From Apostichopus japonicus (lineage: Eukaryota > Echinodermata > Holothuroidea > Aspidochirotida > Stichopodidae), in contig NC_092577.1 of the NCBI RefSeq assembly GCF_037975245.1, positions 20,520,898 to 20,584,897 of the forward strand: DNA of 64,000 bases, read 5' to 3'. The notes beneath the pieces are model-generated. The model searched no databases. It was not told where the DNA came from and saw nothing but the letters and a program-made list of their open reading frames with translations. The stretch's first letter is position 1; the number at the start of each line of letters is the position of its first letter. Shown here piece by piece: positions 8,113-63,800 of the stretch. The translations under genes were made by a program, and so were the position numbers.

Positions 8113-11100
8113 TTAAAAAACTACAAAAGGACGACCAGCACGCAGCGAAACAAAACACCCTTCCCCAGCACACCACCGTCCAAAAAAGGCAGCCCTAGAT
8201 AAACGGCGAAAATCGCCTTCGACCTGAAGGCGAATGTCAGACTTCACCGCCTCCAGGACTGCCTGCCAACTGGCAAATTTCCCCCTAAAAACAACATCAC
8301 ATCTATTCCTCCAAATAAGTTTTTTTACAACAGAACAAACATAAATAATACGCTGCAACACAGCAACGGAACAAACTGGAGGATCTAATCCATACAAAAC
8401 AAAACCCTGTCCTACCGACCAGGAACGGTCTCCCGTTAAACGGTCGGTCCAGGACTGAAACCACTCCCACAAGTTCAAAACAAAGGGGCAATGACAAAAA
8501 ACATGGGCAGTACTCTCTAAGCTGTCACAGCCGGTCCTCGGGCACAGTCCATCACCCAATCGCCAGTGATACCTTTTCAGATTGGTCACCAAGGCACCGT
8601 GTGCAATTCTCCATGCAAGGTCACGGAGCCTGCAACCATTCAGCCTTGAATGCACCGAACGCCATACTTCGACAGGATGACGTCCCTGTACAAAAATTGC
8701 ATTCAAGGCCCTATCCCGCAACGAACTGTGAACGAGGGCCGGCTGTGACAGGTCAACAGGGGGCAACTCAATCAAAGCGGAGCAAATGACACGCACCACA
8801 CTGTTTGGAGTACTACTATGCGGTTCTCTGTTGCTAAACAGCGCCGGGACCCATCGACGCAGGTGCAAACCGCCCCAAAAACGTACAAAATATGAACAAG
8901 GCAACCCTGGGTCAGTTACCGCTACAAACAACTGCTTAAATAACAAACAAGTTAACTTACTTCCCAGATGAACCACCCCTAACCCACCCTTCTCCAGTTT
9001 TTGGTACATTACCGCCCTTTTGACAAGCTCTGTACCACCCGACCAAATAAATGAAAATATCGCTCTCTCCAACCGCACCAGGACGCGACGCGGAATTGGA
9101 TACACCGCGCCCGGGTACCACAAGATGGGCGAAACAAAACGATTAACTACGGTGACTTTCCCTAGGATCGAAAGCCAGCGGGTGCCAAAGGTTTCGAGCC
9201 TGCTCTCAAATACCTCAGCCCTCTCGCTCCAGGTGACATCACCAGGTGCATCGTAGCCGAACCATATACCATTAATTTTGATATTCTGATCCGACCACGA
9301 CGCACCGAATGGTAAGTCTCTGTATCTCCAGCTACCAAGACGAAGGCCCTTTGTCTTTTCTGGATTCAACTTCGCCCCGGTAGCTCTCTCAAAAATAGAT
9401 AAATCCTGCGAGAGTGCGCGAAAGGAGCCCAGACTCGAAACAACACATGTCACGTCATCTGCATATTGAGCGCATTTCACTTTGGCACCCCCTGGCACAA
9501 CGAATGGAACAAGTCTGGAGTCCCTTTCCAAAAGACGAGAGAGGGACTCGCTAAACAAAACATAAAGTAATGGAGACAGAGGGCACCCCTGGCGCACCCC
9601 CCTCTCTACGTTAAAAACCTCCGAACAAAACCCATTTACGATAACAGAACTGAAACTTTCTTCATACAAAACAGAATTCCAATTACGAAAAACCGGGTGC
9701 AACTGAAACGTCTCCAATACATTCATTAAAAAACCGCGATCCACCATGTCAAAGGCCTTCTGCTGGTCCAGAGACACCAATGCACATGGCAGATCACGCT
9801 CAATAACAAAGTCGGTCAAGTCGCGCATCAACCACAAGTTCTGCTGGATGCAATGACCCTTCACTGCACAAGTCCGGAGATCACCCACAAGATGCGGCAT
9901 AGCCAGTGCAAGGCGGTTGCACAAAGCCTTAGCCAGCAACTTGTAGTCCACATTTAACAAGGTGATCGGACGCTTGTTACGGGGATCCAAGGGGTCCCCA
10001 GACTTGGGCAGCAAAGTAATCATGCCCAGACGTTGACTTTGGTTTAACAGTCCGTTTTGGAAGGCGTCCTCGAAGACGGCTCTGATGTCGGGTCCTATTA
10101 TTGCCCAGAAGGTTCGGTAGAACTCCCTCGGAAGCCCGTCCGAACCCGGGGACTTGCCATTCTTCATCTTCGAAAGCGCCTTCCAAAGCTCAACAGTGGT
10201 TATTTCGCCCCCCAAAATATCATTGACATCGTGGGGAACGGTTTTTGAGATTCCCCTCAATAAATCAGCCTGTGCCGACAAGTCGACATTGCCACGCGTA
10301 AACAAACTCGAATAGTACTCTTTATATACGCGGACAATGCCGTGAGGGTCACTAACCACGGTCCCATCAGTAGCGCGTACAGACGGGACGCGTCTGTCAC
10401 CTGCCGATGAGCTAACGGACTGGTAAAACCTCAGTGAAGGGCGCTCCTCGGCTTCCACCGCTTCGACACGGGCCCTGACGCGGGCACCGTGGTACTTTTC
10501 ATCGAGATAAGTCTGCAAAGCGATGACTGCCGAAGGGTCGCCAAACTTCACCTCCGCGCACAGCTTCGAGAATTTTTCTCTTCGACGCCGTGCGCTGGTC
10601 ACGCAATACTGAATTGCGTAGCGTTTGATGCGCAACTTGACCTCATCCCACCATTGGGATGTAGAAGCAAAGGCCGGCTTCAATGTTTGCCATCCTTTGT
10701 ACCTGGTCTCGAAACCCTGGCGGAACTCTGCCTCGCCAAGAATCCGACAGTTAAGCTTCCATAGGCCCCGCCCGATGGGGAAAATGGAAGGCAAAACAAA
10801 ACGTGCTACTACAGTGTCATGGTCAGAGAGCGGACAGCTGAGCGTCTCGCAACCCGAAAATGTAAAACTTACGGGCGCATACACTCGATCTATCCTGGAG
10901 GCATCTTCTCCGTTAGGCCTCACCCACGTATACCCCGTACTACACGGGTGCATATGCCTCCAGACATCGGCTAAAAGGTGTGCCGAAGTGAATCTGTCCA
11001 ATTCTGTGATCCCAGCGTCGGGACTTGCAGACACAGAAGTTCCGAGTCTGTCAAGACCCGAGTCTGGGACACAGTTAAAGTCTCCGACCATGACACACGG

Positions 11101-11503
11101 CGCACTACCAGGAACAAAGGAAGGCAGCGTGTTAAAAAAATCTCGTCTAGCAGAAGGCCGATTGGGAGCATACACATTGCAAATGGCGATGTTACCCTGT
11201 GGATACTTGAATAGAATGCAAACCAATCGGCCCTCGTGATCCGTCTCCACCCTAGTGGCACAACCCGCCTGACGAGCTGACAGAAGGATGACAGTGCCAC
11301 AGGATGAAGACGAACCAAACGAAGCATGCAGCTCACCACCCCACTCATAAGCCCATAGAGGGACATCTTCTTCCAAAATATGTTTCTTGCAGGCAAACGC
11401 AGTCGACCTCCATTGATTTACAATATTGGAAAATGCGACTGCGCTTGCGATGATCCCTCATGCCATTCACGTTCAAAGTGGCAACTGAAAGTGTATGGGC
11501 CAT
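8113..11503 (-). pseudogene. Family B ORF2: endonuclease-reverse transcriptase, single frameshift
   Basis: The likely start is the ATG at 11503-11501 (MAHTLSVATLNVNGMRD), about 20 bp after the ORF1 stop. A short indel near 11380 (within LQET) shifts the frame, after which the frame is open for more than 1,080 codons to the stop at 8113. Domains in order: endonuclease (GDFNCVPDSGLDRLG, ASRIDRVYAPVSFTF, LSDHDTVVARF), RT (GLPREFYRTFW, ITLLNVDYKLLAKAL, SLDQQKAFDMVDR, GVRQGCPLSPLLYVLF, intact QYADDVT), and a C-terminal Cys/His motif (LESTAHVFCHCPF). Its role is target nicking and target-primed reverse transcription. Apart from the one indel it looks functional. Confidence 0.9.
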
Positions 11504-37248: not shown

Positions 37249-38063
37249 GTATTCTACTTAGTCAGGTGGCTTAGCAACTTTAACGTTACCGGCCGGACAA
37301 AAGTACCAAATTTGGCATGGAGTTTCTTTTCGACCTATCTATCGATTTTATCCGTGGAACCCACTTTATCGGTTCCGATTTTTCAAGATGGCGGCCAAAA
37401 TCCAAGATGGCCGCCAGAAAAAAAGGAAATGTCATATATCTGCCTGTAAAAATCAGAGATGAACAAATGAGGGGTCAATTCAGGTGTTTCCGGGGTCACT
37501 GAAACAGATGATGATCATGGCATGTTGCTTGAGTAAGCCACTTCCAAGATGGCGGCCAAAATCCAAGATGGCCGCCAGAAAAAAACCAAATGTCATATAT
37601 CTGGCTGTAAAAATCGGAGATGAACAAATGAGGGGTCAATTAAGGTGTTTCCGAGCTCACTGAAACAGATGATGGTCATGGTATGTTGCTTGGGCCACCC
37701 ACTTCCAAGATGGCGGCCAGAATCCAAGATGGCCCCCTGAAAAAAAAAGGAAATTTCATATATATTCAATCTCCAGACCCTCTGTGCCCTTTTCTGATCG
37801 GGACCATCAAACCTTCCATCCTCAAACGTGTAAATGAAACCGGGCTAGCACCCTGACTATATGTTATGGCTGGTATTCTAATTGTGTCACTTTGGTTGAG
37901 GAAGCCACTTAGGACTATATAATAGGGTAACTTGAGGGAAAACAGACCAGATGTGAATACTGACTCATTGAGAGATTTTGTAGGATTGTGCACCCTTCAT
38001 AAACACAACGTCAATTGTGCGAACAACACACGCTAAGTCAGGTCACTAGGCATCTGGAGCATT

Positions 38064-39943: not shown

Positions 39944-40761
39944 TCAGATGCCTAGTGACCTGACTTAGCGTGTTTTGTGCGTTATTCGCACAATTGACGT
40001 TGTGTTTATGAAGGGTGCACAATCCTACAAAATCTCTCAATGAGTCGGTATTCACATCTGGTCTGTTTTCCCTCAAGTCTTACATGACACCCGTAACTCC
40101 CGTAACTCTCGTAACTCCCATAAGTGGCTTCCTGAGCCAAAGTGACACAATTAGAATACCAGCCATAACATATAGTCAGGGTGCAAGCCCGGTTTCATTT
40201 ACACGTTTCAGGACGGAAGGTTTAATGGTCCCGATCAGAAAAGATGAAATTTTCTTTTTTTTTCAGGGGCCATCTTGGATTCTGGCGCCATCTTGGAAGT
40301 GGGTGGCCCAAGCAACATACCATGACCATCATCTGTTTCAGTGAGCTCGGAAACACCTTAATTGACCCCTCATTTGTTCATCTCTGATTTTTACAGCCAG
40401 ATATATGACATTTGCTTTTTTTCTAGCGGCCATCTTGGATTTTGCCCGCCATCTTGGAAGTGGGTTACTCAAGCAACATGCCATGATCATCATGTTTCAG
40501 TGACCCCGGAAACACCTGAATTGACCCCTCATTTGTTCATCTCTGATTTTTACAGCCAGATATATGACATTTGGTTTTTTTCTGGCGGCCATCTTGGATT
40601 TTGGCCGCCATCTTGAAAAATCGGAACCGATAAAGTGGGTTCCACGGGTAAAATCGATAGATAGGTCGAAAAGAAACTCCATGCCAAATTTGGTACTTTT
40701 GTCCGGCCTGTAACGTTAAGCCTAAAAATTGTTGCTAAGCCACCTGACTAACTGCATTAGA

Positions 40762-41216: not shown

Positions 41217-42336
41217 TTACATCTCTATGTTCCGACGTCTCTATGTTCCGAGAATTTTTGGGTACTTTTTTGACCCTAATTTTTTTGGACTAAATTTTTT
41301 TGGCACCAAAATTTGTGACCAACATGTTTTCGGACGAAAATTTTACACCAACATGTTTTTGGTCCCTAATTTTTTTGGACCAAACTGGCCTTGGTCCGAA
41401 AAAATGTCAGTACAAACGATTAAATTTCGGGTCACAACGAATTTTCGGTCACAAGCACTATTTGGGTCATTACAAACCATGGGCCCTTTTTTTTTCCTGA
41501 AAAAAATTGGCTGCGTCCAAAAAATTGTGTCCCCCCAAATAAGGGTAGGTGAGACAAAATGGGGGAGCCAAAAAATTGAGTCACCCCAACAAAATTTCGT
41601 CCGAAAAATGGGGGACCAAAAAGATTCAGTCTCCCAATAAAAAATTTCGTCCAAACAAATTGTCGGAACATAGAGACGTCGGAACATAGAGACGTCGGAA
41701 CATAGAGACGTCGGAACATAGAGACGTCGGAACATAGAGACGTCGGAACATAGAGACGTCGGAACATAGAGACGTCGGAACATAGAGACGTCGGAACATA
41801 GAGACGTCGGAACATAGAGACGTCGGAACATAGAGACGTCGGAACATAGAGACGTCGGAACATAGAGACGTCGGAACATAGAGACGTCGGAACATAGAGA
41901 CGTCGGAACATAGAGACGTCGGAACATAGAGACGTCGGAACATAGAGACGTCGGAACATAGAGACGTCGGAACATAGAGACGTCGGAACATAGAGACGTC
42001 GGAACATAGAGACGTCGGAACATAGAGACGTCGGAACATAGAGACGTCGGAACATAGAGACGTCGGAACATAGAGACGTCGGAACATAGAGACGTCGGAA
42101 CATAGAGACGTCGGAACATAGAGACGTCGGAACATAGAGACGTCGGAACATAGAGACGTCGGAACATAGAGACGTCGGAACATAGAGACGTCGGAACATA
42201 GAGACGTCGGAACATAGAGACGTCGGAACATAGAGACGTCGGAACATAGAGACGTCGGAACATAGAGACGTCGGAACATAGAGACGTCGGAACATAGAGA
42301 CGTCGGAACATAGAGACGTCGGAACATAGAGACGTC
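41217..42336. mobile_element. Minisatellite-ended inverted-repeat element
   Basis: The left side has about two 16-bp units in one orientation (41218-41250, TCTCTATGTTCCGACG). The right side has a long array of the same unit in the opposite orientation. The AT-rich middle (41250-41660) repeats TTTTTTTGG/CCAAAAAAA and TTTCGTCC words. It lies between gene X blocks, so it is probably an insertion. A degenerate related piece occurs at 46790-46990. Confidence 0.6.
41663..42334. repeat. 16-bp minisatellite, 42 units
   Basis: The unit TCGGAACATAGAGACG repeats without visible variation for 672 bp. Because 16 is not a multiple of 3 and no frame contains a stop on the minus strand, it yields three long overlapping repetitive open frames, none of which I regard as a gene. 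Confidence 0.95.
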
Positions 42337-46789: not shown

Positions 46790-46990
46790 GGTGGTGAGAA
46801 CGTTTTCCGAACTTGCGAGTAGCAATCGAAATCCTGTTCCGGCAAAAAGAAAAAATTCGGAGCAATTTTTTGTATCCCAAAATTTGGTTGTACCAATTTT
46901 GCTCAACAAAATGACGAGTCCAAAAATGATTTCGTATTGTCGGACCATAGAGACGTCGGAACACAGAGCCGTCGGAACAAAGAGATGTCA
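46790..46990. repeat. Degenerate relic of the 16-bp minisatellite element
   Basis: Three diverged units (GGACCATAGAGACGTC, GGAACACAGAGCCGTC, GGAACAAAGAGATGTC at 46943-46988) follow an AT-rich stretch resembling the middle of 41250-41660. Confidence 0.7.
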
Positions 46991-52183: not shown

Positions 52184-52450
52184 GTTTTTTTCTTTTTTTG
52201 ACATTGGATTACATGAACTTTATTAAACCACGTAGGTAATTACATGCTCGTATAAAACAGGATATAAGATACAAACTTTAAAACATGAACACCTAAAACG
52301 TACAGTATCAAACAATTGAAACAATATGAAAACATAAAAGTACAGTCGGAACAGAAGAAACAGCCAGACGTCCAAAGTCTTCATTGTAAAGTTTGATGAC
52401 CTAATTTCTCAAATATTGATTCGTCACGTAGGCCATTTCAAATACTTCCT
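52184..52450 (-). mobile_element. CR1-like non-LTR retrotransposon 3' UTR, copy 1
   Basis: A T-run at 52184-52199 followed by GAACTTTATTAAACC is, on the minus strand, a polyadenylation signal and A-rich tail. The body (CGTACAGTATCAAACAATTG, AGTCTTCATTGTAAAG) is homologous to 62719-62880. It is 5'-truncated and contains an intact TTAA at 52278-52281, equivalent to the Kolobok insertion site in copy 2. Confidence 0.7.
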
Positions 52451-52531: not shown

Positions 52532-52535
52532 TTAA
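52532..52535. other. Kolobok target duplication, left (TTAA)
   Basis: TTAA directly before the terminal inverted repeat; matched by TTAA at 62706-62709. Confidence 0.9.
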
Positions 52536-52553
52536 AGGAGACACAAACCCACA
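52536..52553 (+). repeat. Kolobok terminal inverted repeat, left
   Basis: AGGAGACACAAACCCACA; one mismatch (C/T at position 9) against the right copy. Confidence 0.9.
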
Positions 52554-52853
52554 ACATTTCCTTAATCCTTATGATGGAAAGATATATTATAAACACTATA
52601 CACGCCTTAGTTTATTTATAAACTGTTTAATCATATTTTGTTTCGATTTTTGAAAACATTTTTTCGCTACTATAATGAAATGTATGGGGCGCGCCATTTT
52701 GTACACCCGCCCTCAACTTAGTGACGTAGTAGATTCACTTCGTTTCTCAGAAACCAATCACTCACACAGTACATTCATATGCAGATTGTGTGTTGACAAT
52801 GGTCAAAGAAAGTTTGGAAAAAGTTTCTCAAGTTGGAAAAAAAAGTTTAAATT

Positions 52854-55800
52854 ATGCCGGAATGCCAAGCTTATGGTTGTCCAAATCGTCATGGTGCTGG
52901 AAAATCTAAGGGGAAGCGATTTTTTGTTATTCCTGACGGAAAAACTGACCCATAGAACAGAGAACTTTCCCAGAAATGGCTACATCAGATCGGGACTGGC
53001 CATACCGTGGACAACTTTACGTTCCACAAATACAAAGTTGTTTGCGAGGACCACTTCGAAGAGAAATGCTTCAGCAAGACTAATGGGAACTAAACCGAGA
53101 AAGAACTTAAAACCCGGCTCCTTTCCAACCATTTTCGTCCATCGTCGCCCGAAAGAAGACCACTGTCGAGCACTGCGCCTTCTGAAAAGATCAGCGAAAC
53201 AGGTGAGGCCTAACGAAAGTCGTTTGTTTATATCGCGCAGTACATCGGAGTATATCATTAGGCCGCCGATTTGTGAATGATGTGGGGTTAAAAGTTGGAT
53301 ATTTGTATATGAATTAATGTAGAAAAATCATTTGTTTTGCATATCGTCACGTATTCATTAAAAAATTACCCCGATATAATTCTAATATTAACGCTAAGAT
53401 AGCAGTAAGTTAGTACAGTGCATAGCTTCTCATGGCACTAGTACAATAGGCCTACATTGATTCTGTTAGTAGTATAGTACAGTGCACAGCTTCACATGGC
53501 ACTAGTAGTACAATAGGCCTACATTGATTCTTTCAATTGAAAGGTGTGAAAACAAAACAAAGAAAATCATTGCAAACTTAACAAGGGCTTATCTTATGTT
53601 GTCTGATGTACAACTGTTAGCATTGTTAATACAAGTTTGTCTAAGTTTTTAATTGTGTAATGAACCACAGGTGAAAAGAGTTTACTTTTTGGGATCATTT
53701 CCTGTGAAGGGTGTATTATAATTGAGCAGGGGTGGGATCATGATACTGTATCTGAGGATAATGTAAGATATTTACTAGAAATATCCTCCATAAATATAGG
53801 TAGCTCTGTTAGGGACGTGTTGGAATAGTTGACTGTGTTTGTTCCCAAGGTTAAAACTGAGCAATGTCCATGTAGGTGGTTCAAGGGTATCCAGAAAGGG
53901 AGGTGCACTTTCCATATTTCTGGAAGCCATATTTCTAAAGAAAAAAAAAAGGGTCACAACATCAAACTGATCACGGGGGGGGGTGCACATCCCCCAGTCT
54001 ATCGCTTATATACGATGGCCCTGGGTTGACGGCACATTATGATTTCACAAAATTTGGCTTAGAATATAAACAAAACACAAGCTTTATGGGGGTGACGTTC
54101 CCCCTCTGCCCCCCCCCTCCCTGGAGGTGGTACACTAGTTACAACAGCCGTGGATATAATGATATATCCACGGAGGTGATCGACCAGTGCTTTTGGCAAC
54201 AACAAAATATCGGTGCCGTGGATATAATGTGCACCAAATTTTTATATCCACTGTGCAGCTGCCGTGGATGTAATGTGCACAAAATTCTTATATACACAGC
54301 CACCTTTGTTGCGTTCCCTCAGTCGCTCCTCGATTAACTGCCTTCAAGCCAAGTATTGAATTTTTTTCTCTTATAGAAGTTTGTGGACCATTTTTTATGT
54401 CGTCTTCCTCCTCCTCATACTTCTCCCACTCCCCCCTAGAAAAAAAGATAATAGAACAAAATTAATAGCCCTTTTTAGACCACATTAACCACTTCTTTTA
54501 GCAATACTGGAAAATTGTTACTGTTTATTCCCCTCCCCTCATTCATGGCGATCTCAGTTGGATCTTAGTATGGCTTGATGGGAATTTTTAACCCATAAAC
54601 TGCTCCTACTTTACCATGTTTCATGTTTTTTTTAAATTTTTCTAATGTTTATGTTTTTATACTTTTTTTTGTAGGAAATCAATCAACCTTTGACAGCAAA
54701 GGATCAGCCACCTTCAAAGAAACTGTGTCAGCCATTACACTGTTCACCTAAGGTATTAAAATTTGTAATTTTGTCTGTTTATAATTTCTTTTATTGTTTT
54801 ATGTCAAAGTTACTGCAGTACCATAATCAGACTTTGATTTTTTTTCTTTTTGGGGGGGGGGCACATGTATACAAAATTGAAAACAAATGGTCACTAGAGC
54901 TAATTGTTCCAAAAAATGAAGTATTAGCTGATTAATCAAATATAAAAATTGATTATGCTGTAATCATTCGATGTTTAAAAGTGCTTCAATTCAAACAAAA
55001 ATATTGTTATCATATTTCAAAATTCCAAAACTTTTCAGATTTGATCACCCTCTTGAAACATTTCTACATAGCACTTCAAGCTGACACACATGAAAATTCA
55101 AGAGCTGTATATATTAAAAATTTATTACTTTGACTGCAGTTAATGTAAATTTCATACTTGTTCCTGGAATTGAGGTTTCATTAAGTAGTGATTTTGTATT
55201 GAAACTAAATGTTTTAATTCTCTTATCAACAGGGAGTTTCCAGTCTATTGGATCCACCTGCTGAGGTTCTTTCCCCTGCTGTCACACCCACAACTGCTGT
55301 AACACGGATCACTCAGCAATTCATACCTGTAAGTTTGGCTTTTACTTGTTCTCAGATTTACACTATGGGTTTATTGTTTGCATCCCTAATAAGATTCTGA
55401 GGTTTGAAATAAAGTAGGGAATGTCACTGAAAAATTAAAATATACACAACAGCCCTCAACTCGATTTCAAAAAGGGGCCCTCCAAGAGTGGATCCAGAAA
55501 ATCATCTAAGAGTAATAATTTCCATAATTTTCTAAAGAGCTCCAAAAAAATGTCACCGCATTTAATAGTGGTTATGAATTCACAATTTAAGATTATTTTT
55601 TCATGGGCTGTAAGTGGGAAAGTCTCCCGTGGATCTACCCATTAGGCTCGCTAGTTAATCTCTGGGCTCGTTTTAAATCTCAGAAAGAAACCATAAATAA
55701 TAAGGTCATCCTTAAAATATTGTTAGCTTTGGAGTAGCCCAGTCGGTTGCAAAATTTGGGTATGTAGGCAATTTTTTTTGTTAACCAACTTCAAAATTTA

Positions 55801-58373
55801 GTATGCTTTTTTGCACACTGTAAAATTTAATTTTTTGGTTCAAGAAAATGTCTTTGAGAAGATAGGAATTTTTTGAGAAGGGTACAGTTACTCCAAACGT
55901 ACACTTTTATTATGATAGCCTAAGGGCCATTCATGTACCAAACAGGAAAACTTTTTTTTTTTTCCTTTTTTTTTGTTAAGGTTGTTGCAAGGTATTTTTT
56001 TAAGTATATACATAAAAAAAATTCTGAGGGATGGGGAAAAAAAAATGAGGGCAGGCAGGTTGCCCCTATAAACAAGTACTGTAAAGGTAGAGCACTGCAC
56101 ATTTCAAAAAGCAAATTGGTTGAAAAGACATTAAAATTTTCTCATTCTTTCCTATGTTTTTACATTACATTAAGTCACAATACAGTTTTGCACTGACATA
56201 GTAAAACTGGGTGTCAAAATAAATTACTACATATGTCACTGCCTTAAATGTTGTACCAATATTTTTGGTACAGTTCAATCCTTTAAATTAGATATCAGCC
56301 AGTTATGGACCAGAGAATTTGTTCTTTACAAGCAGGTTTTAGAAAACATGCATGAGAATTTTTCAAACCCTTTAAGTCTTTTCTCATTTTTTTTCAAGGT
56401 TAATTCTAATGCCTACCTTTATCATTTTTAATGTATGAAAATTTCTTTTTTTTCTTTTTGGCAGATTTAAATCAATGTTTATCTTATGTTAGTCTAACTC
56501 GAGTGTTTATGCTCTTTTATTTATTCTTGTACAGGATGCCTTGTCCAGTGTTTGCGCATCAACTCAGACATATACTGACGTTACAGAGATGGGATGCCAA
56601 GCTGGTGTACCACAAGTCAAAACACACCATGCTTGTACAGTGGAATTGGACCACCCATACAGGTTCTTATCAGCGGATGTGTCCTCTGAGGGAATGGCTC
56701 CACCCCAGGAGACCCCACCGCAGCAAGAGACATTGCCACCACAGAGGTCCTTGAAACACAAGTCCCCCCTTAAAATTGAAAAAGGTGAGGACAACAGTGA
56801 TGGCAGCGATAAAGGATGCGAGGATGATGAAAAGCGAGATTCACACTATGAACCGGACGCAGACCTACCCATCTTTTCAATCACTGACTCCTTTGAAACA
56901 AAGGCTGTAGAGGAACAAAAGTATATAGTATTTGAGGCGAACATAGAACAGCTTTGTTATCATATTCAATGTTCCCAATGTTCAAGTAGTGTTACAGATA
57001 TAGAAAAGCAAGTTGTTGGGTCAGGTTTGCTTGCAACATTGAAGTGTATTTCTGGCCATGTTGTGTTGAAGTGGACCTCCCAGCCCTTAGATGGTAGGAT
57101 GCCCATTGGTAACCTCCTCTGTTCTGCGGCTACCATGTTCTCTGGACTGACATATCAAAGAGTTGCTCAATTCATGAAATTTTTAAATTTGCAGTTCTTT
57201 TCTGCCACTACATTTTATGACCTTCACAAGATGTACCTCATCCCAGAGATTAACAGTTATTGGGATGCACATCAAAAGGCAGTGGTTGACCAATTGAAAG
57301 GATCCCCAACTGATCTTATTGGTGATGGGCGTTGTGATCCACCAGGGTTTTCAGCCAAGTATTGTAGCTACTCTTTGATGGATGTCAGTTCAGAGAAGGT
57401 GGTAGACATGGAACTGGTGCAAGTTTCAGAGACTGGGGCATCTCAAAGAATAGAAGCAGTGGGCTTCCAGAGGTGTATGGATAGAGTCCTTAATGACTAT
57501 AAACTTAATGTAAAAAGATTTGCTACTGACCGTCACACAGGAATAAGAAAATTAATGCGTACTAAGTACAGTTCTTTAAAACATAATTTTGATATATTTC
57601 ACCTAGCGAAAAATATCAAAAGCAAATTGCGCAAAGCGGCAAAGAAAAAGGGAAATGAAGAATTGGAACCTTGGATCAAATCCATTATCAACCATCTGTG
57701 GTTTTGTGCCAGAGCTTGCAACAAGGACCAGGAGCTGTTGGTGCAGATGTGGTCATCTGTGGTCTACCATGTTCTAGGACAGCATGAGTGGTCAGATGAT
57801 CCTAACTGACCACTATTTCAGAAATGTGGCCATGATCCACTGACAGATCTGCAGCAGAGAAAGAAAATATGGCTCAAGGCAGGATCATCTGCCCACGAGG
57901 CACTGAAGAAGGTAGCCCTGTCTAAGCGACTTTTGAAGGACATTAGATTTCTTGCAGAATTCATGCATACTGGTGCCCTTCAAGTTTTCCACAATGTCCT
58001 TTTGAAGTATGCGCCGAAGAGATTAGAGTTCGGTTATTCATCAATGACAGCTCCATTGAAGTTAGCTGCAATTGACCACAACCAGAATGTTGGACGGGCA
58101 AAGGCCGTTGTGAAGAAGCCTCACAAAGGCTCATCCGCACGAGGGGAAGTACAATACAAGGAGGTATTTACAAAAATGACGAAGAGTTGGGTGCTGAAGG
58201 CGAGGTATGAAGCCAAGAACTATGATTATGTCAAAGATTTAATGAAAGGGGTTGTATATCGAAGACAGACAAGGACAATTGACCCTGTGCCAGCAGCGCC
58301 TGCAAAAAATATTGCACCAACTGAAGCCCCCTCAAAAGAAGAAATGTTGAAGAGCCATGCTTCAAGGTTTTAA
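52854..58373 (+). pseudogene. THAP-domain Kolobok transposase gene, four exons, few lesions
   Basis: Exon 1 (52854-53202) encodes a THAP zinc finger: MPECQAYGCPNRHG, KRFFVIPDGK, QKWLHQIG, CEDHFEEKCF, then PGSFPTIF. It has a TAG at 52953-52955 and a frameshift near 53080. Exons 54675-54752, 55233-55328 and 56535 onward have AG/GT borders and all join in phase 0. The last exon carries the catalytic-type region: SQPLDGRMPIGNLL, FSATTFYDLHKMYLIPEIN, DLIGDGRCDPPGFSAKY, FATDRHTGIRKLM and HNFDIFHLAKNIKSKL. A TGA at 57807-57809 precedes an in-frame continuation (PLFQKCGHDPLTDLQ, HTGALQVFHNVLLKYAPKR) to 58373. AATAAATATT near 58631 may be the polyadenylation signal. Two stops and one frameshift suggest recent inactivation. 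Confidence 0.82.
53203..54674 (+). other. Intron 1 of the transposase gene, with a duplicated segment and hairpins
   Basis: A tandem duplication of about 65 bp (AGTACAGTGCA... to AGGCCTACATTGATTC) lies at 53413-53531. CCGTGGATAT / ATATCCACGG form a 10-bp hairpin at 54148-54173, with related CCGTGGATGTAAT words downstream. Confidence 0.6.
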
Positions 58374-58956
58374 ATTTTGTATTGTTTAAGTTCAGCATTT
58401 TCTTCATAATTAAGCTTATTTCTTTTAATGTTGATTACTGTGTATCTTTTGTAACAGAAAAATTTGGTGGTAAACTAATCACGTTTTTATCCGGTATGCT
58501 TCTTTTCATTGGCATCAGCAGGAATTTTCTATCTTAACTCCAATTCATCTTTTGCTTTACAAGAAAGTGCAATAATGTTTGAAAGCCAAGGACTAGAAAC
58601 TTGCCAATTAATTTCATCAGCAGCTTCTTAATAAATATTTTTGCATATTTGAGCCAAAAATTTACTGCCAAAGTTAGAAAGAGAACCTTGAAAAATAAAG
58701 TTATTCATAATAAAAAATATATAGGCCTACTATAATTTATTTAAATCTTTCATAGTACTTACCTTGATAAAGGTGCATTTTCATTTTTAAAGATAAATAC
58801 CCAGAAAACTTTTGAACTCTATGCCTTTCACCTATGCAATATTACATATTGTTTCCATGTATTTGCTTTTTTATGATCTCATTAACTTTTTGTTTGATTG
58901 GGTTATGTTGGGCTTGGTATACTATCCATTGTAATGATTAGTCTTTCATCAACGAT

Positions 58957-59200
58957 CAGTTGAAATGTTATTCAACTATGAACCCTATTATTGTTTCTAA
59001 GGTCACCTTGCTTATAATGCTAAGAGTTATGTACAACAAAATGAAACATTCTCTTTTTTATGTATTCACTAATGATGAGTTGAAATGTTATTCAACTATT
59101 AACAATGTTATTGTTTGTAAGGTCACCTTGCTTGTAATGCTAAGATTTATGTACAACAAAGTGAAACATTCTCTTTTTTATGTATTCATCAATGACTGTC
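58957..59200. repeat. Tandem duplication, two units of about 122 bp
   Basis: Units start GTTGAAATGTTATTCAACTA (58960 and 59079) and end TTTTTTATGTATTCA; about 90% identical. Lies between the two Kolobok genes. Confidence 0.85.
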
Positions 59201-59295
59201 ACAGTTGTCGCTGCAGTCATTTTTTCATAATTTTGTGTATATTGTTAACGTTTTATTTAAACATGTGTACAAATTATTCTAAACTATCGTAAACC

Positions 59296-59361
59296 TCCCT
59301 GGTTTAGTGGTTAGTGTTTCGCCTATTACAACAACTTCCCAGGTTCAATCTCCAGTGTCCA
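59296..59361 (+). repeat. tRNA-Glu-like sequence (relic or SINE head)
   Basis: TCCCTGGTTTAGTGGTTAG matches a tRNA-Glu 5' half with A box, and GGTTCAATCTCC resembles a B box. The acceptor stem does not close well and no adjacent tail was found, so this is probably a decayed tRNA-derived repeat rather than a functional tRNA gene. Confidence 0.45.
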
Positions 59362-60976
59362 ACTAGTTTTTACAACTGGTTTATAAAATGGCTGTTGTAT
59401 CTTTATGTAACCTTTGGGATGCAAAATACCCATTGAAACCAAAGAAACTATTCTGAAGATTAGATAAATTTTCATATCTTTCATGATTTGGTTTGTGCAA
59501 GATAAATTTGTTCAATCATTTATCCATTGCTTGATAGTCTCATATTATTATGATATAGTTTCATTTGTGACAGAGATGTTGCTTTTTTTCAACTCGTGCG
59601 ATTTTGCAAACTGTTTTCACCATTTATTTGAATAGCTGTGTTACCATTTCATCATATATTGTGTTTGATGTTTATATTTTCTTTATATACCTCTAGACCT
59701 TGTGCTTGTGATATTTTGTGGAAATACATTTTTCTTGACAATGACAAACATTATGGTATGTGCATTTCTTTACTTGAGACAATACACCACAGGTATTTCC
59801 TTGCTTTATCCACTTGATATGCTTCTCTGTAAAAATTTAGTCGCTGAAATATTTTACAACTTATATTGTATGTTCAAATAGTATTTTACATAATTGAGGA
59901 TGCTACAGTTAAGCAATGCAATACTAGTGGTTGATATCTTCCTGTTGCAATAAGATCTTTTTCATGCCAAGGCTAGACAGATCTACTATGCTATTGAAAA
60001 CCTACCAATCATATGAAAGGGGATGAATACTGATATGTGGTAAATGAATGTGTGGGGTAGGAATCAAAGCCCTTCACTACTTTGAATGAGTGGATAGATG
60101 TTGGATCCCAGAAAGGACTTAATATCACAATATGAAGAATGGAATAGGGTGGAAATAGTAGCTTGACAAACTCTGAAGTTTGTGGGACATGTATCTACAT
60201 TTTACTTCAGTTTCAGGCCATTCATGGGGGTTAAGCTGGTGTTCCTCCCTGGTGGAAGCAAATGGAAATATGCTCCTCTTTGTCTCTTCCAAACACATTT
60301 TTTTCAATAATTTAAGCTACTTACTGCGAAAATAATATTATGCAGTTACAGCCAAAAAATTTATCTGCTTATATTCATCAGACCTGAAAATATAATAAGA
60401 GTAAAACACATACAGTATATTTTCTATTTTGGGCCTTTATTCTTTGCAAAACCTGAAATCCTTTACAATATTGTTTAATAGAAGCCTCTCAGTATTTTTC
60501 ATGAGGAATGGATATACAATTTTTACTACAGGTATAGTAAAAACAAAATTAAATATGAAAGATCCCAAATCTGGAGTTATAATCATTCAAGAGTTACGCA
60601 TCCTTCCCTCTCATATGAACAAAACCGATATCTTCTGATCTGCAAGAAAAAAAAGACCTCATAAATTCCTCTGATAACACAAAAATTATAACATAAAAAC
60701 AAATGAATTTCATGTTTTGCAACGATGCTTCACTGCTTAATAAATTTCAATTAAAAGGAATACTTTGGCATTTTTTATCCCACCTGTTATTGCCAGCTAA
60801 GGATGCAGTTCTTCTGCGTCATGATTTACCTAAATGCAGCTCTCTAAATGTGCTGTACAGTAGAACTGATATTAAATTTTAACCAAACAATTGTTTATAC
60901 AGTTGTTTGACAAAAATAAACTCACAAACATAAGCAGGGCTATATACCAGTAAATAGAAAATTGAAAAATCACCTT
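59362..60976. other. Non-coding spacer between the two Kolobok genes
   Basis: AT-rich; short frames only. Nothing supported. Confidence 0.4.
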
Positions 60977-61895
60977 TTAATCCATAGTTAATGCCTCTTG
61001 TACTTCAAGGTACCCTGAGAAGGTGTCATCAGTAAATTCTGCCCTGATCCGCATGACACAGCAGGAAGGTAACACTCTCCTGTTGCCTTTTCCTAAGGAT
61101 TGACCTCTGCTTGCCCACAAACTGATCTGTCTATAAGCCATGAGTCTTTTCTGCCTGTTGAAATAAAAGGAAAACAATCACATTTTACATATTGAATAAG
61201 ATCATTTTAGGATTCCATTTCTTTCATGTTGCATTGAGGTTGGCTGTTGGAAAATTGCTCAACTGAGCTGTTGCAGCTTCAAACTTGGATGCATTCTATG
61301 CATTCTAAATGTGTCTTGAATGAGGAAAACTTAAACAAAACTCCTGTTGGCAAGTGTCTGGTCTTAAAATTGTAAAGCAGTATTTAATAGAGTTCAATTG
61401 TGTAAATGCTGCATTGATTTACTGCGCATATTCGAATGAAAATCAAGATAGACAGCAACATCAAAGTAGTGTAGGGTTGCCTAATTTTAATTGTTATAAA
61501 AAAAATAATTAAAAAAAAACTAACCTGTTGTTCATTTGAGCCTGGGCTGCAAGTGGCGGTTTCTTTTTGTATTGAAGAAATTGCTGGAAAGCAAGCTCGA
61601 AAACTAATTTCTGCAAGCATACTGCAGCAAACTTCGGGTCTTCAGTAATGCAGGCTCCAAAATCCAGTTCATGTTGCCCAAATACCGAGTGGCAACAAAC
61701 ATTCTCCTTTTCAGAAGGCATAGCTTCACATTCTCCACACAAACAATAATCTTCTTCACTAGTATCAGTCTCAGTTTCACTTCCAACTGAGTCAGTGTCA
61801 GTGGCATTTTTTTCAGCAGCTAAATTTACCATTTCAGCTTCAGTATATTCGGGTTCAAACTGATAGCCCTCAAGTCCAAAATGTTCCATTTTCAA
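60977..61895 (-). CDS. P2X7 'ballast'-domain (P2RX7_C-like) protein encoded by the Kolobok element
   Basis: Two exons on the minus strand: 61895-61525 and 61154-60977, with a GT-AG intron (61524-61155; donor CAACAG/GTTAG, acceptor TTTCAACAG/GCAG). The 549-nt join is in frame and gives 182 residues without a stop. An acidic N-terminus (about 1-50) precedes the zinc-ligand motif CLCGECEAMPSEKENVCC (residues about 51-68), ACITEDPKFAAVCLQKLV and, across the splice, MNNRQKRLMAYRQISLWAS, GKGNRRVLPSCCVMRIRAEF. This is the order of the P2X7 intracellular domain, here without any membrane channel. It is convergent with the transposase gene inside the same terminal repeats. The molecular role in the element is unknown. 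Confidence 0.85.
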
Positions 61896-62188
61896 CCAAA
61901 AAATACGATATGTCTTCAGGCCTACGTACTTAACTTTGATGTGCCTGGGCCTGCGGATTACGCACTGAAAGAAATAATGTTAGGCTGACAAACGCCTAGC
62001 CTAAGTCGTAAACAAAGTTGCTTGTGGCAAGTGCTGAGTTTTTGTTCGATTCCGTACAAAGAATGCTTTAAAGTGAAACTGAATATATTTACGGAGTGAA
62101 AGAAACACGATCAGTAAAAAGCCAAATATGTTTGGTTTTACGAAATATGACCAATGAAACAGTGAATTCGAGGAACTCTTCCACACAA

Positions 62189-62256
62189 GCACTCGTAACG
62201 TTATGTAGGTGTATGGTATATAAACACGGAGTACACCTACATAACGTTACGAGTGC
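62189..62256. repeat. Perfect 25-bp inverted repeat, 18-bp loop
   Basis: Arm 62189-62213 begins GCACTCGTAACGTTATG and is exactly complementary to 62232-62256. It lies about 300 bp upstream of the ballast-domain gene. Confidence 0.92.
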
Positions 62257-62514
62257 CTGTGCTCTTCAAGTTGTTTATCGTGTTTTTTCGCGGAACTAAT
62301 GACGATCTTATCGAGAGTAAGAGTATTTCTTTTCGATCGTATTTTATTCTTTTCAAGCAATTAAACAAATTATATCGATTGAAAAAGCACAAATTCAAAT
62401 ATTATAATTTACAAAAAAGTTAATACGCATTTATAATGAGAAAATAAAATCAATGGTTACAAAGATTATTTTTCTGCTATAAGTTGGCAACAAAAAATCG
62501 AAAGTGAATCGAAA

Positions 62515-62575
62515 GCGTCACTTCCGGCTTGAAAAGCGGTGGTTTTAAAAATTTTTGATCAAATATGGCGGCTCC
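62515..62575 (-). promoter_or_regulatory. Candidate promoter motifs for the ballast-domain gene
   Basis: CACTTCCGGC (ETS/GABP-like, 62520-62529) and ATGGCGGC (YY1-like, about 62566) lie close together upstream of the minus-strand gene and 130-190 bp from the element end. Assignment is by motif only. Confidence 0.3.
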
Positions 62576-62687
62576 CATAAGCCTTCAAACTTTGGATCAT
62601 ATCTGGAATATGGTTGTATTTCGTGGAAAATGGTGTTGATTTTTAGAATCTGCATATATTTCTGCCCTAGAATAACCTAAATAATTC

Positions 62688-62705
62688 TGTGGGTTTATGT
62701 CTCCT
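62688..62705 (-). repeat. Kolobok terminal inverted repeat, right
   Basis: Reverse complement reads AGGAGACATAAACCCACA; followed by TTAA at 62706-62709. Confidence 0.9.
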
Positions 62706-63800
62706 TTAAAATATGGAAACCTAAACGTACAGTATGAAACAATTGTAAGAATATGAAAACATAAGACATTTTAAAACATGCAGTAACACAATTTACAAAG
62801 CTCAGGACAATGGCAAGAGAGTACCAGTCGGAACAGCCGGACGAGATCTAACGTTGAAAGTCTTCATTATAAATTTTGATGCATTGTGGAATGAATGAGG
62901 AAGAATGTCGATTCGTATGAGACGGTGGTAACCGCATCCTTCCACTTGTAGGAATAACCGCTCTGTGGAAATATTGATGGAGTGGGTGGTTATCTTCGCT
63001 CATGATTCCATCTGTTTTCACTCTCAGTAGTTGGTGATATGTAGAAGGCAAGGTTCGCTGATTAGTCCCGAACAGACGACCTGCTTGCCGAATTATTGTT
63101 TCAATACGTTGCGTATCTTCTTTTCTCGCGTTCCCACCCCACGAGACCAGATTTTAACGCCACTCCAGTAATTATCGAGTTATAAAACATAAGAAGGATT
63201 TCATTATTCACGTGGAATTTGTACAACATACAAAAGCAATGCATCCTAGTATTTAATCTCTTCAATAATTCATGCCAAGAAATCCTATTATCGATCACCA
63301 CCCCAAGAAACTTTTACTTATCTACCCTCTCAACAACACTACCATCTATAACTACCTCCCTGTGGACTTTCTCTTACTTGAAAAGTCAATAGCCATTTCG
63401 TTCGTCTTAGTTACATTTAGTTCTTTAAGTTACGCTTATAATGGCACTGAACAAAATCCTCAATCTGACTCAAGTACGCAGTGTATCGTCGTCGGCAAAT
63501 TTCACCAATTGGCAATTCTCGTTGATAGACCTAACATCTGACGTATAAAGTATGAATACAAATGCGGCTAAAACCATATCGTGTGGAAAACCAGTGTTGG
63601 AAGTTATGACATTACACACGCTAACGCTATTAGCTGTTTTGATTTTAACATACTGTGATCTCCCAGTTATATCGATAAATCCACAAAATGAGATCATGAC
63701 TGACATTCATATCAACAAGTTTCTTGGCAAGAATGTTGAGTTGGATAGTATTAAAAGCAGAAGAGAAATCAAAGAACATGACCCAGGCTGAGTTCCCCTG
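62706..63800 (-). pseudogene. CR1-like non-LTR retrotransposon RT and 3' UTR, copy 2, split by Kolobok
   Basis: Minus-strand frames give VMFFDFSSAFNTIQLNIL, TGFPHDMVLAAFVFILYTSD, KFADDDTLRT (catalytic ADD), then MVIDNRISWHELLKRLNT and the C-terminal HPLHQYFHRAV, SGRMRLPPSHTNRHSSSFIP. This order fits CR1/Rex1-type reverse transcriptases. The 3' UTR continues at 62706-62720 and, across the Kolobok element, at about 52450-52531. Frameshifts make it a pseudogene. A family A tail interrupts its 5' side at about 63801. Confidence 0.75.

Follow-up and report, generated by a model that had tools for sequence, protein, structure and literature searches.

A Kol0-type Kolobok transposon of the sea cucumber Apostichopus japonicus carries a convergent gene for a P2X7-like ballast protein

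The window analyzed here is a stretch of 64,000 nucleotides from Apostichopus japonicus, corresponding to C17:20520898-20584897 of the searched genome (671.6 Mb in 35 contigs). A single unit of 10,170 bp (52536-62705) was delimited in it, with TTAA repeats outside and 18-bp terminal inverted repeats (TIRs) inside, and this unit holds a transposase gene and a small gene, KolX, on the other strand (Table 1). An initial annotation had proposed a 10.17-kb unit with TTAA, 18-bp TIRs and a THAP transposase gene, and this was borne out with exact boundaries, the left and right TIRs being equal at 17 of 18 bases with one mismatch.

Table 1. Coordinates (window positions) of the transposon, its ends and its two genes
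Feature	Position	Strand	Remark
Left TTAA target-site duplication	52532..52535	.	TTAA also flanks three other full-length copies, at different sites
Left TIR, AGGAGACACAAACCCACA	52536..52553	+	
Transposase exon 1, THAP domain, broken	52854..53202	+	PF05485, 47.1 bits
Probable transposase exon 2	54675..54755	+	A. japonicus protein P0005, 92% over 26 residues
Possible transposase exon 3	55233..55330	+	Open frame bounded by AG and GT signals
Transposase exon 4, DDE core, one in-frame stop	56535..58373	+	
KolX exon 2	60977..61154	-	
KolX intron, GT...AG	61155..61524	-	Exon limits with GT and AG the same in four other copies (alignment)
KolX exon 1, CxCxxC...CC...C cysteines	61525..61889	-	
Right TIR, AGGAGACATAAACCCACA	62688..62705	-	
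Right TTAA target-site duplication	62706..62709	.	

Outside the unit, the window contains a 16-bp tandem array of GTCGGAACATAGAGAC (41662-42336; 42.2 copies, 100% matches), a short array related to it (46939-46989) and two further tandem arrays with units of 161 and 159 bp (37384-37746 and 40244-40615, respectively), whose consensus units by look are partly reverse complements of each other. On the minus strand, a 1,114-codon open frame (8116-11457) with endonuclease, reverse transcriptase and zf-RVT regions appears to be an intact non-LTR retrotransposon ORF, and a Ulp1/C48 peptidase fragment (1-495) is cut by the window edge.

The 22-bp pattern of the element ends was matched twice in the window when up to three mismatches were allowed, as against 0.01 matches expected from shuffling. 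With up to two mismatches, 139 matches were obtained in the genome and none with the reversed control, and among the genome matches listed at least 14 were perfect. The termini read 5'-AG...CT-3' and thus have the 5'-RR...YY-3' form by which Kolobok (Kol0) elements are set apart from piggyBac, and a TTAA target-site duplication is found in all four full-length copies of the family (see below). Longer subterminal inverted similarity between the two ends did not rise above that of shuffled sequences. A 21-nt inverted pair (81%; 52720-52740 and 62502-62522) lies about 185 bp inside each end and may be a subterminal binding site. Short direct repeats are present in both flanks (52301-52398 and 62728-62881), so the element sits in a locally repeated host stretch; such sharing of short repeats between left and right flanks was seen in the window copy and in one other copy.

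The transposase gene of the window is a broken gene of the THAP/DDE Kolobok type; THAP and DDE motifs are also described in a study of Xenopus Koloboks (PMC6004289). Its THAP exon was scored with X at the two stops (cut-off of 23.9 bits). The first of these stops is at 52953; in comparison to three other copies, 14 bp are missing at about 53073, and the second stop, at 53091, probably results from this gap. The 3' limit of the second exon was set from a splice signal, and the third exon has no protein match. The DDE exon is 97% identical to a database protein of 594 residues (P0002), and D268, D332 and D353xxH356 are present, the catalytic triad being a putative one, assigned by position. At alignment residue 483 the window has Gln, and all 10 other rows having a residue there have Glu. 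It is unlikely that the window copy moves by its own gene.

The KolX gene, on the other hand, is intact, with two exons and an orientation convergent to the transposase gene, as the initial annotation had described; its length had been overstated by one codon (182 instead of 181, that is, 180 residues and the stop). The claim that its product matches the zinc-binding domain of P2X7 stands as well. The product scores 66.1 bits against Pfam P2RX7_C (PF20478; cut-off 23.5, E 5e-18), and a failure at this point had been named beforehand as evidence against the proposal. All eight motif (zinc-coordinating) cysteines align with those of P2X7, and a PDB sequence search with E up to 1 found four entries, all of them P2X7 (best E 1e-7). 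Of the five GDP contacts of rat P2X7, R546 and R578 are kept; membership in the family does not depend on these contacts. Pfam scoring found no P2X channel domain in the gene. The N-terminus (residues 1-20) has a motif, FGLxxYxFEPEY, that is common to the relatives P0089 and P0090 and absent from the P2X7 rows aligned, and in all three proteins it is followed by an unconserved acidic linker.

Relatives were also recovered by protein searches. KolX alone retrieved one, and a profile to which two P2X7 tails had been added retrieved 27 more, which were mostly P2X7 tails, the named ones being mammalian; five of the relatives are not obviously P2X7 (P0001 and P0088-P0091). Among viral contigs, 27 pattern matches were scanned and no relative was confirmed. 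P0001 is an NCBI protein of A. japonicus named "P2X purinoceptor 7-like"; it is 97% identical to the window KolX and has exactly the sequence of the KolX encoded by the C16:8.07 Mb copy, so that in an invertebrate this gene name can denote a transposon gene. In a Foldseek search with the predicted model of P0001 (mean pLDDT 67.8), the best 13 of 17 matches were P2X7, although the alignment used as input already included P2X7 rows and the predicted likeness is thus not independent.

A genome search with the left 501 bases of the unit gave 14 matches including the window, and 10 of the 13 others were examined in sequence. They comprise three full-length copies (C7:5.57M, C16:8.07M and C7:0.97M) with TTAA and TIRs at both ends and 96-97% identity, three internal-deletion derivatives of about 1.3 kb (on C5, C19 and C22) in which most or all of KolX is gone, and four partial copies. 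In the derivatives, TTAA is found at both ends on C22 and at one end each on C5 and C19. The 390-bp flanks of different copies show no match to each other. KolX is present in all four full-length copies and open in three of them, with a 1-base gap that shifts the frame in C7:0.97M. None of the four has an undamaged DDE exon, which weakens the case for their mobility: the exon has one stop in the window copy, an 8-bp insertion near the start in C7:5.57M, where a 600-codon frame remains open across the core, and a 1-base gap in each of C16:8.07M and C7:0.97M. Less damaged copies exist, as shown by a 646-codon open frame at C16:3188089 (with a similar transposase score) and by the 594-residue P0002.

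Given that the KolX frame of the window copy is open and its transposase broken, the small gene could have been kept intact through use by the host, and separate selection on it had been suggested from the start as one possibility besides chance. Separate selection was not supported. The contrast is weak, since at a density of 3-5 lesions in 2,450 bp a stretch of 540 bp escapes all of them with a probability of 0.33-0.52. In addition, the amino-acid divergence from the nearest database records does not differ between KolX (5/180) and the transposase (15/593; p=0.79), and one copy, as noted, has lost the KolX frame. Mean divergence among the four full-length copies is 1.9-2.8% in noncoding sequence, 1.7% in the DDE exon and 0.8 and 1.2% in the KolX exons. 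In tests that treat changes as independent although the copies are related, the copies differ in KolX by 4 synonymous and 8 nonsynonymous changes (dN/dS 0.50; p=0.27 versus neutrality) and in the DDE exon by 25.5 and 39.5 (dN/dS 0.42 from site counts and 0.44 when pooled; p=0.002), with no difference between the two (Fisher p=0.76). These values suggest that the DDE exon, and perhaps KolX, was constrained while the family spread, and KolX is not singled out. Domestication of the window gene is therefore very improbable.

Whether KolX is associated with Kolobok transposases beyond this family was addressed across the genome. The search with PF20478 gave 471 candidates, of which 150 were scored, all of them above the cut-off; none of the 14 control genomes, chosen by the search program itself, gave a signal. 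The transposase query (P0011) gave 84 genome matches with 76 of 243 candidates scored. For the comparison of the two sets, the 70 of 150 ballast matches with at least 40 bits were used, among which the 33 with at least 60 bits are referred to as strong. At least 20 of the 33 strong matches have a listed Kolobok transposase match within 8 kb, and in all 20 the two are convergent; the same holds for at least 7 of the 37 matches of 40-60 bits, again all convergent (7/7). When the 33 were placed at random in 1,000 trials, on average 0.10 and never more than 2 of them had such a neighbor, with 28 Mb assumed for contigs without a known length. With 76 of 243 transposase candidates scored, 13 of the strong and 30 of the weaker ballast matches have no transposase match within 8 kb. 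The result is independent of the KolX genes in the four full-length copies of the window family, since these are not among the 70 matches.

Clustering of 30 ballast loci resulted in six clusters. Counting the 20 strong matches that are transposase-linked themselves and 8 that cluster with a linked locus, 28 of the 33 can be connected to a Kolobok. The exceptions are the L030/L031/L041 cluster, in which L041 has one weak convergent transposase piece, the single locus L043, and one locus without sequence examined. TTAA/TIR boundaries on both sides were found for the window family only. A second family (on C5, C9 and C15) has a right end, ...CCTTTAA, adjoining TTAA, and no matching left end within the 12.5 kb examined. 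Evidence against the pairing comes from Holothuria leucospilota, where the gene of the KolX-like protein P0090 (tag 03422) lies hundreds of gene tags from the three transposase matches (tags 02957, 03116 and 03121), which are on a contig of equal length.

One alternative would be that a single transposon copy happened to pick up KolX, as a ballast gene of the host. Free-standing ballast proteins do occur in many animals, with one or few (<10) per species according to Rump et al. 2020 (PMC7016195). A chance passenger is, however, hardly compatible with the presence of KolX in 4/4 full-length copies, is contradicted by the same convergent pair in other families of this genome, and disagrees with the Kol0 Koloboks of other animals, which carry KolX as well according to Kojima & Bao 2022 (PMC9587614); we consider it next to impossible. 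The proposal of the initial annotation that the ballast gene belongs to the mobile unit is thereby upheld. It had also been stated there that copies lacking the gene, together with ballast genes never lying inside TTAA/TIR boundaries elsewhere, would count against the proposal. The combination did not occur as worded. The first part was observed, in the three 1.3-kb derivatives; as for the second, ballast genes elsewhere do adjoin Kolobok transposases, although boundaries on both sides are confined to the window family.

Two kinds of ballast loci deserve separate mention. At L043 (C19:11523823-11524269), a ballast exon of about 203 codons (1354-1962; 111.5 bits) follows a sequence that resembles a splice acceptor. 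The locus clusters with no other, no match to a Kolobok transposase lies within 8 kb of it, and it is a candidate domesticated KolX. A copy search in which 40 of 1,704 candidates were scored matched, besides the locus itself, a repeat at its 3' end. A reading of L043 as a P2X gene tail was rejected, as C19 has no P2X match. Furthermore, 61 of the 150 scored ballast matches form a group of almost identical C-terminal pieces that score about 29-33 bits and contain one TGA (in one of them there are other readings too). These pieces, among them L063 (C17:2435300-2436200), cover approximately profile positions 143-192 and lie behind a splice-acceptor-like sequence. Possibly these are non-autonomous elements, or they belong to the piggyBac type of Kojima & Bao, in whose paper a few piggyBac families encode a protein resembling the C-terminal part (PMC9587614).

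As for the relation to P2X7, a profile of 11 P2X7 tails was used to score the relatives of KolX. The highest score was that of P0088 (101.6 bits), seven sea-cucumber locus sets ranged from 94.0 (L029) to 70.4 (L043), and the window KolX and A. japonicus P0089 reached 49.8 and 48.6, respectively, which makes the window element one of the more distant relatives of P2X7. In a tree that is short and unrooted and in which long branches may mislead, a split of 98/98 places P2X7 together with the other families. Since the tree is unrooted and the P2X7 branch long, the order of events could also be the reverse, with a host ballast gene existing first and an ancient Kolobok capturing the domain from it. 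Against this stands the distribution given by Rump et al., where P2X7 occurs only in bony fish and tetrapods and the ballast domain without P2X down to sponges (PMC7016195). In the sea cucumber, the P2X-receptor matches (nine, five of them above the cut-off) all lie on C15 at 15.10-15.19 Mb, and no ballast match is listed within about 1 Mb of them (321 of 471 ballast candidates unscored), with which capture from an older host gene would still be compatible. We regard a host origin as improbable, if less so than the two alternatives weighed above.

Taken together, the unit is almost certainly a fairly recent copy of a Kol0-type Kolobok DNA transposon. The transposase gene and KolX are read inward from opposite ends of the unit. 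In the proposed account, the transposase, by analogy with the family, would use its THAP domain to bind the ends, with TTAA as the insertion target. The KolX product is predicted to be a small protein of the zinc-cysteine kind in which an acidic N-terminal tail precedes the ballast fold known from P2X7. Its likeliest role, at about even odds, is to assist the transposase as an accessory factor, through contact between the proteins or through nucleotide sensing; the nucleotide role is weakened by the conservation of only two of the five rat GDP contacts. The P2X7 tail very probably derives from such a KolX gene, which is also the conclusion of Kojima & Bao, the direction of transfer being inferred. 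For the account as a whole (a Kol0 unit, an inward pair of transposase and KolX, an accessory role of KolX and a P2X7 tail derived from it) we estimate a probability of about 0.8. A more far-reaching version is doubtful. In it, the Kol0 transposase could not do without KolX, which would sense nucleotides or zinc and have FGLxxYxFEPEY as its docking motif, domestication of the KolX domain would have happened more than once (P2X7, nanor and perhaps the exon at C19:11.52 Mb), and the ballast synteny from sponge to sea urchin would be the Kolobok itself.

Much of this agrees with earlier work. According to Kojima & Bao 2022 (PMC9587614), Koloboks of the Kol0 lineage encode KolX as a second protein, this protein has the ballast fold of P2X7, and P2X7 originated through a fusion with it. 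Capture by P2X7 is thus already published, and what is new here is that the association of ballast genes and transposases was measured in one genome, where the pairs have so far always been convergent. It gives whole-genome support to a brief published claim, that the P2X7-specific cytosolic domain is a transposon protein, and the many KolX/transposase pairs in one genome provide material for functional tests. In the main text of Rump et al. 2020 (PMC7016195), which shows the ballast domain across animals, the string "transpos" does not occur. The same source reports an Ixodes protein that combines a "TAHP" domain (taken here as THAP) with a ballast domain. In animals from sponge to echinoderm it also finds ballast genes in linkage with two markers ("ancestral synteny"), which, as a guess, could be Kolobok genes. 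Other papers on KolX/P2X7 or on sea-cucumber Koloboks were not apparent among open-licence PMC papers; one review (PMC9319628) has both terms once each.

Compared with known systems, the element resembles the Kol0 lineage, represented by Kolobok-1_XT in PMC9587614, in its TTAA target, 5'-RR ends, KolX and a transposase with DxxH and a putative DDE triad whose third residue is Gln in the window copy, a likeness drawn from the published description and not from Repbase Kol0 sequences. KolX resembles the C-terminal ballast domain of P2X7 (PDB 6u9v, 9e3m) in its PF20478 match, its eight cysteines and, by Foldseek with the predicted model, probably its overall fold. It differs from P2X7 in having no P2X channel domain, in that two exons encode it, where a single one (exon 13) suffices in P2X7, in retaining just two (R546 and R578) of the five residues that contact GDP in the rat receptor and in its own N-terminal FGLxxYxFEPEY. 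Finally, like the ZCD/nanor-like proteins of PMC7016195, it is short with a C-terminal zinc-cysteine domain and has the same two GDP contact residues that invertebrate ballast domains keep; unlike those proteins, with fewer than 10 per species, the sea-cucumber genome has at least 150 scored matches, many of them fragments.
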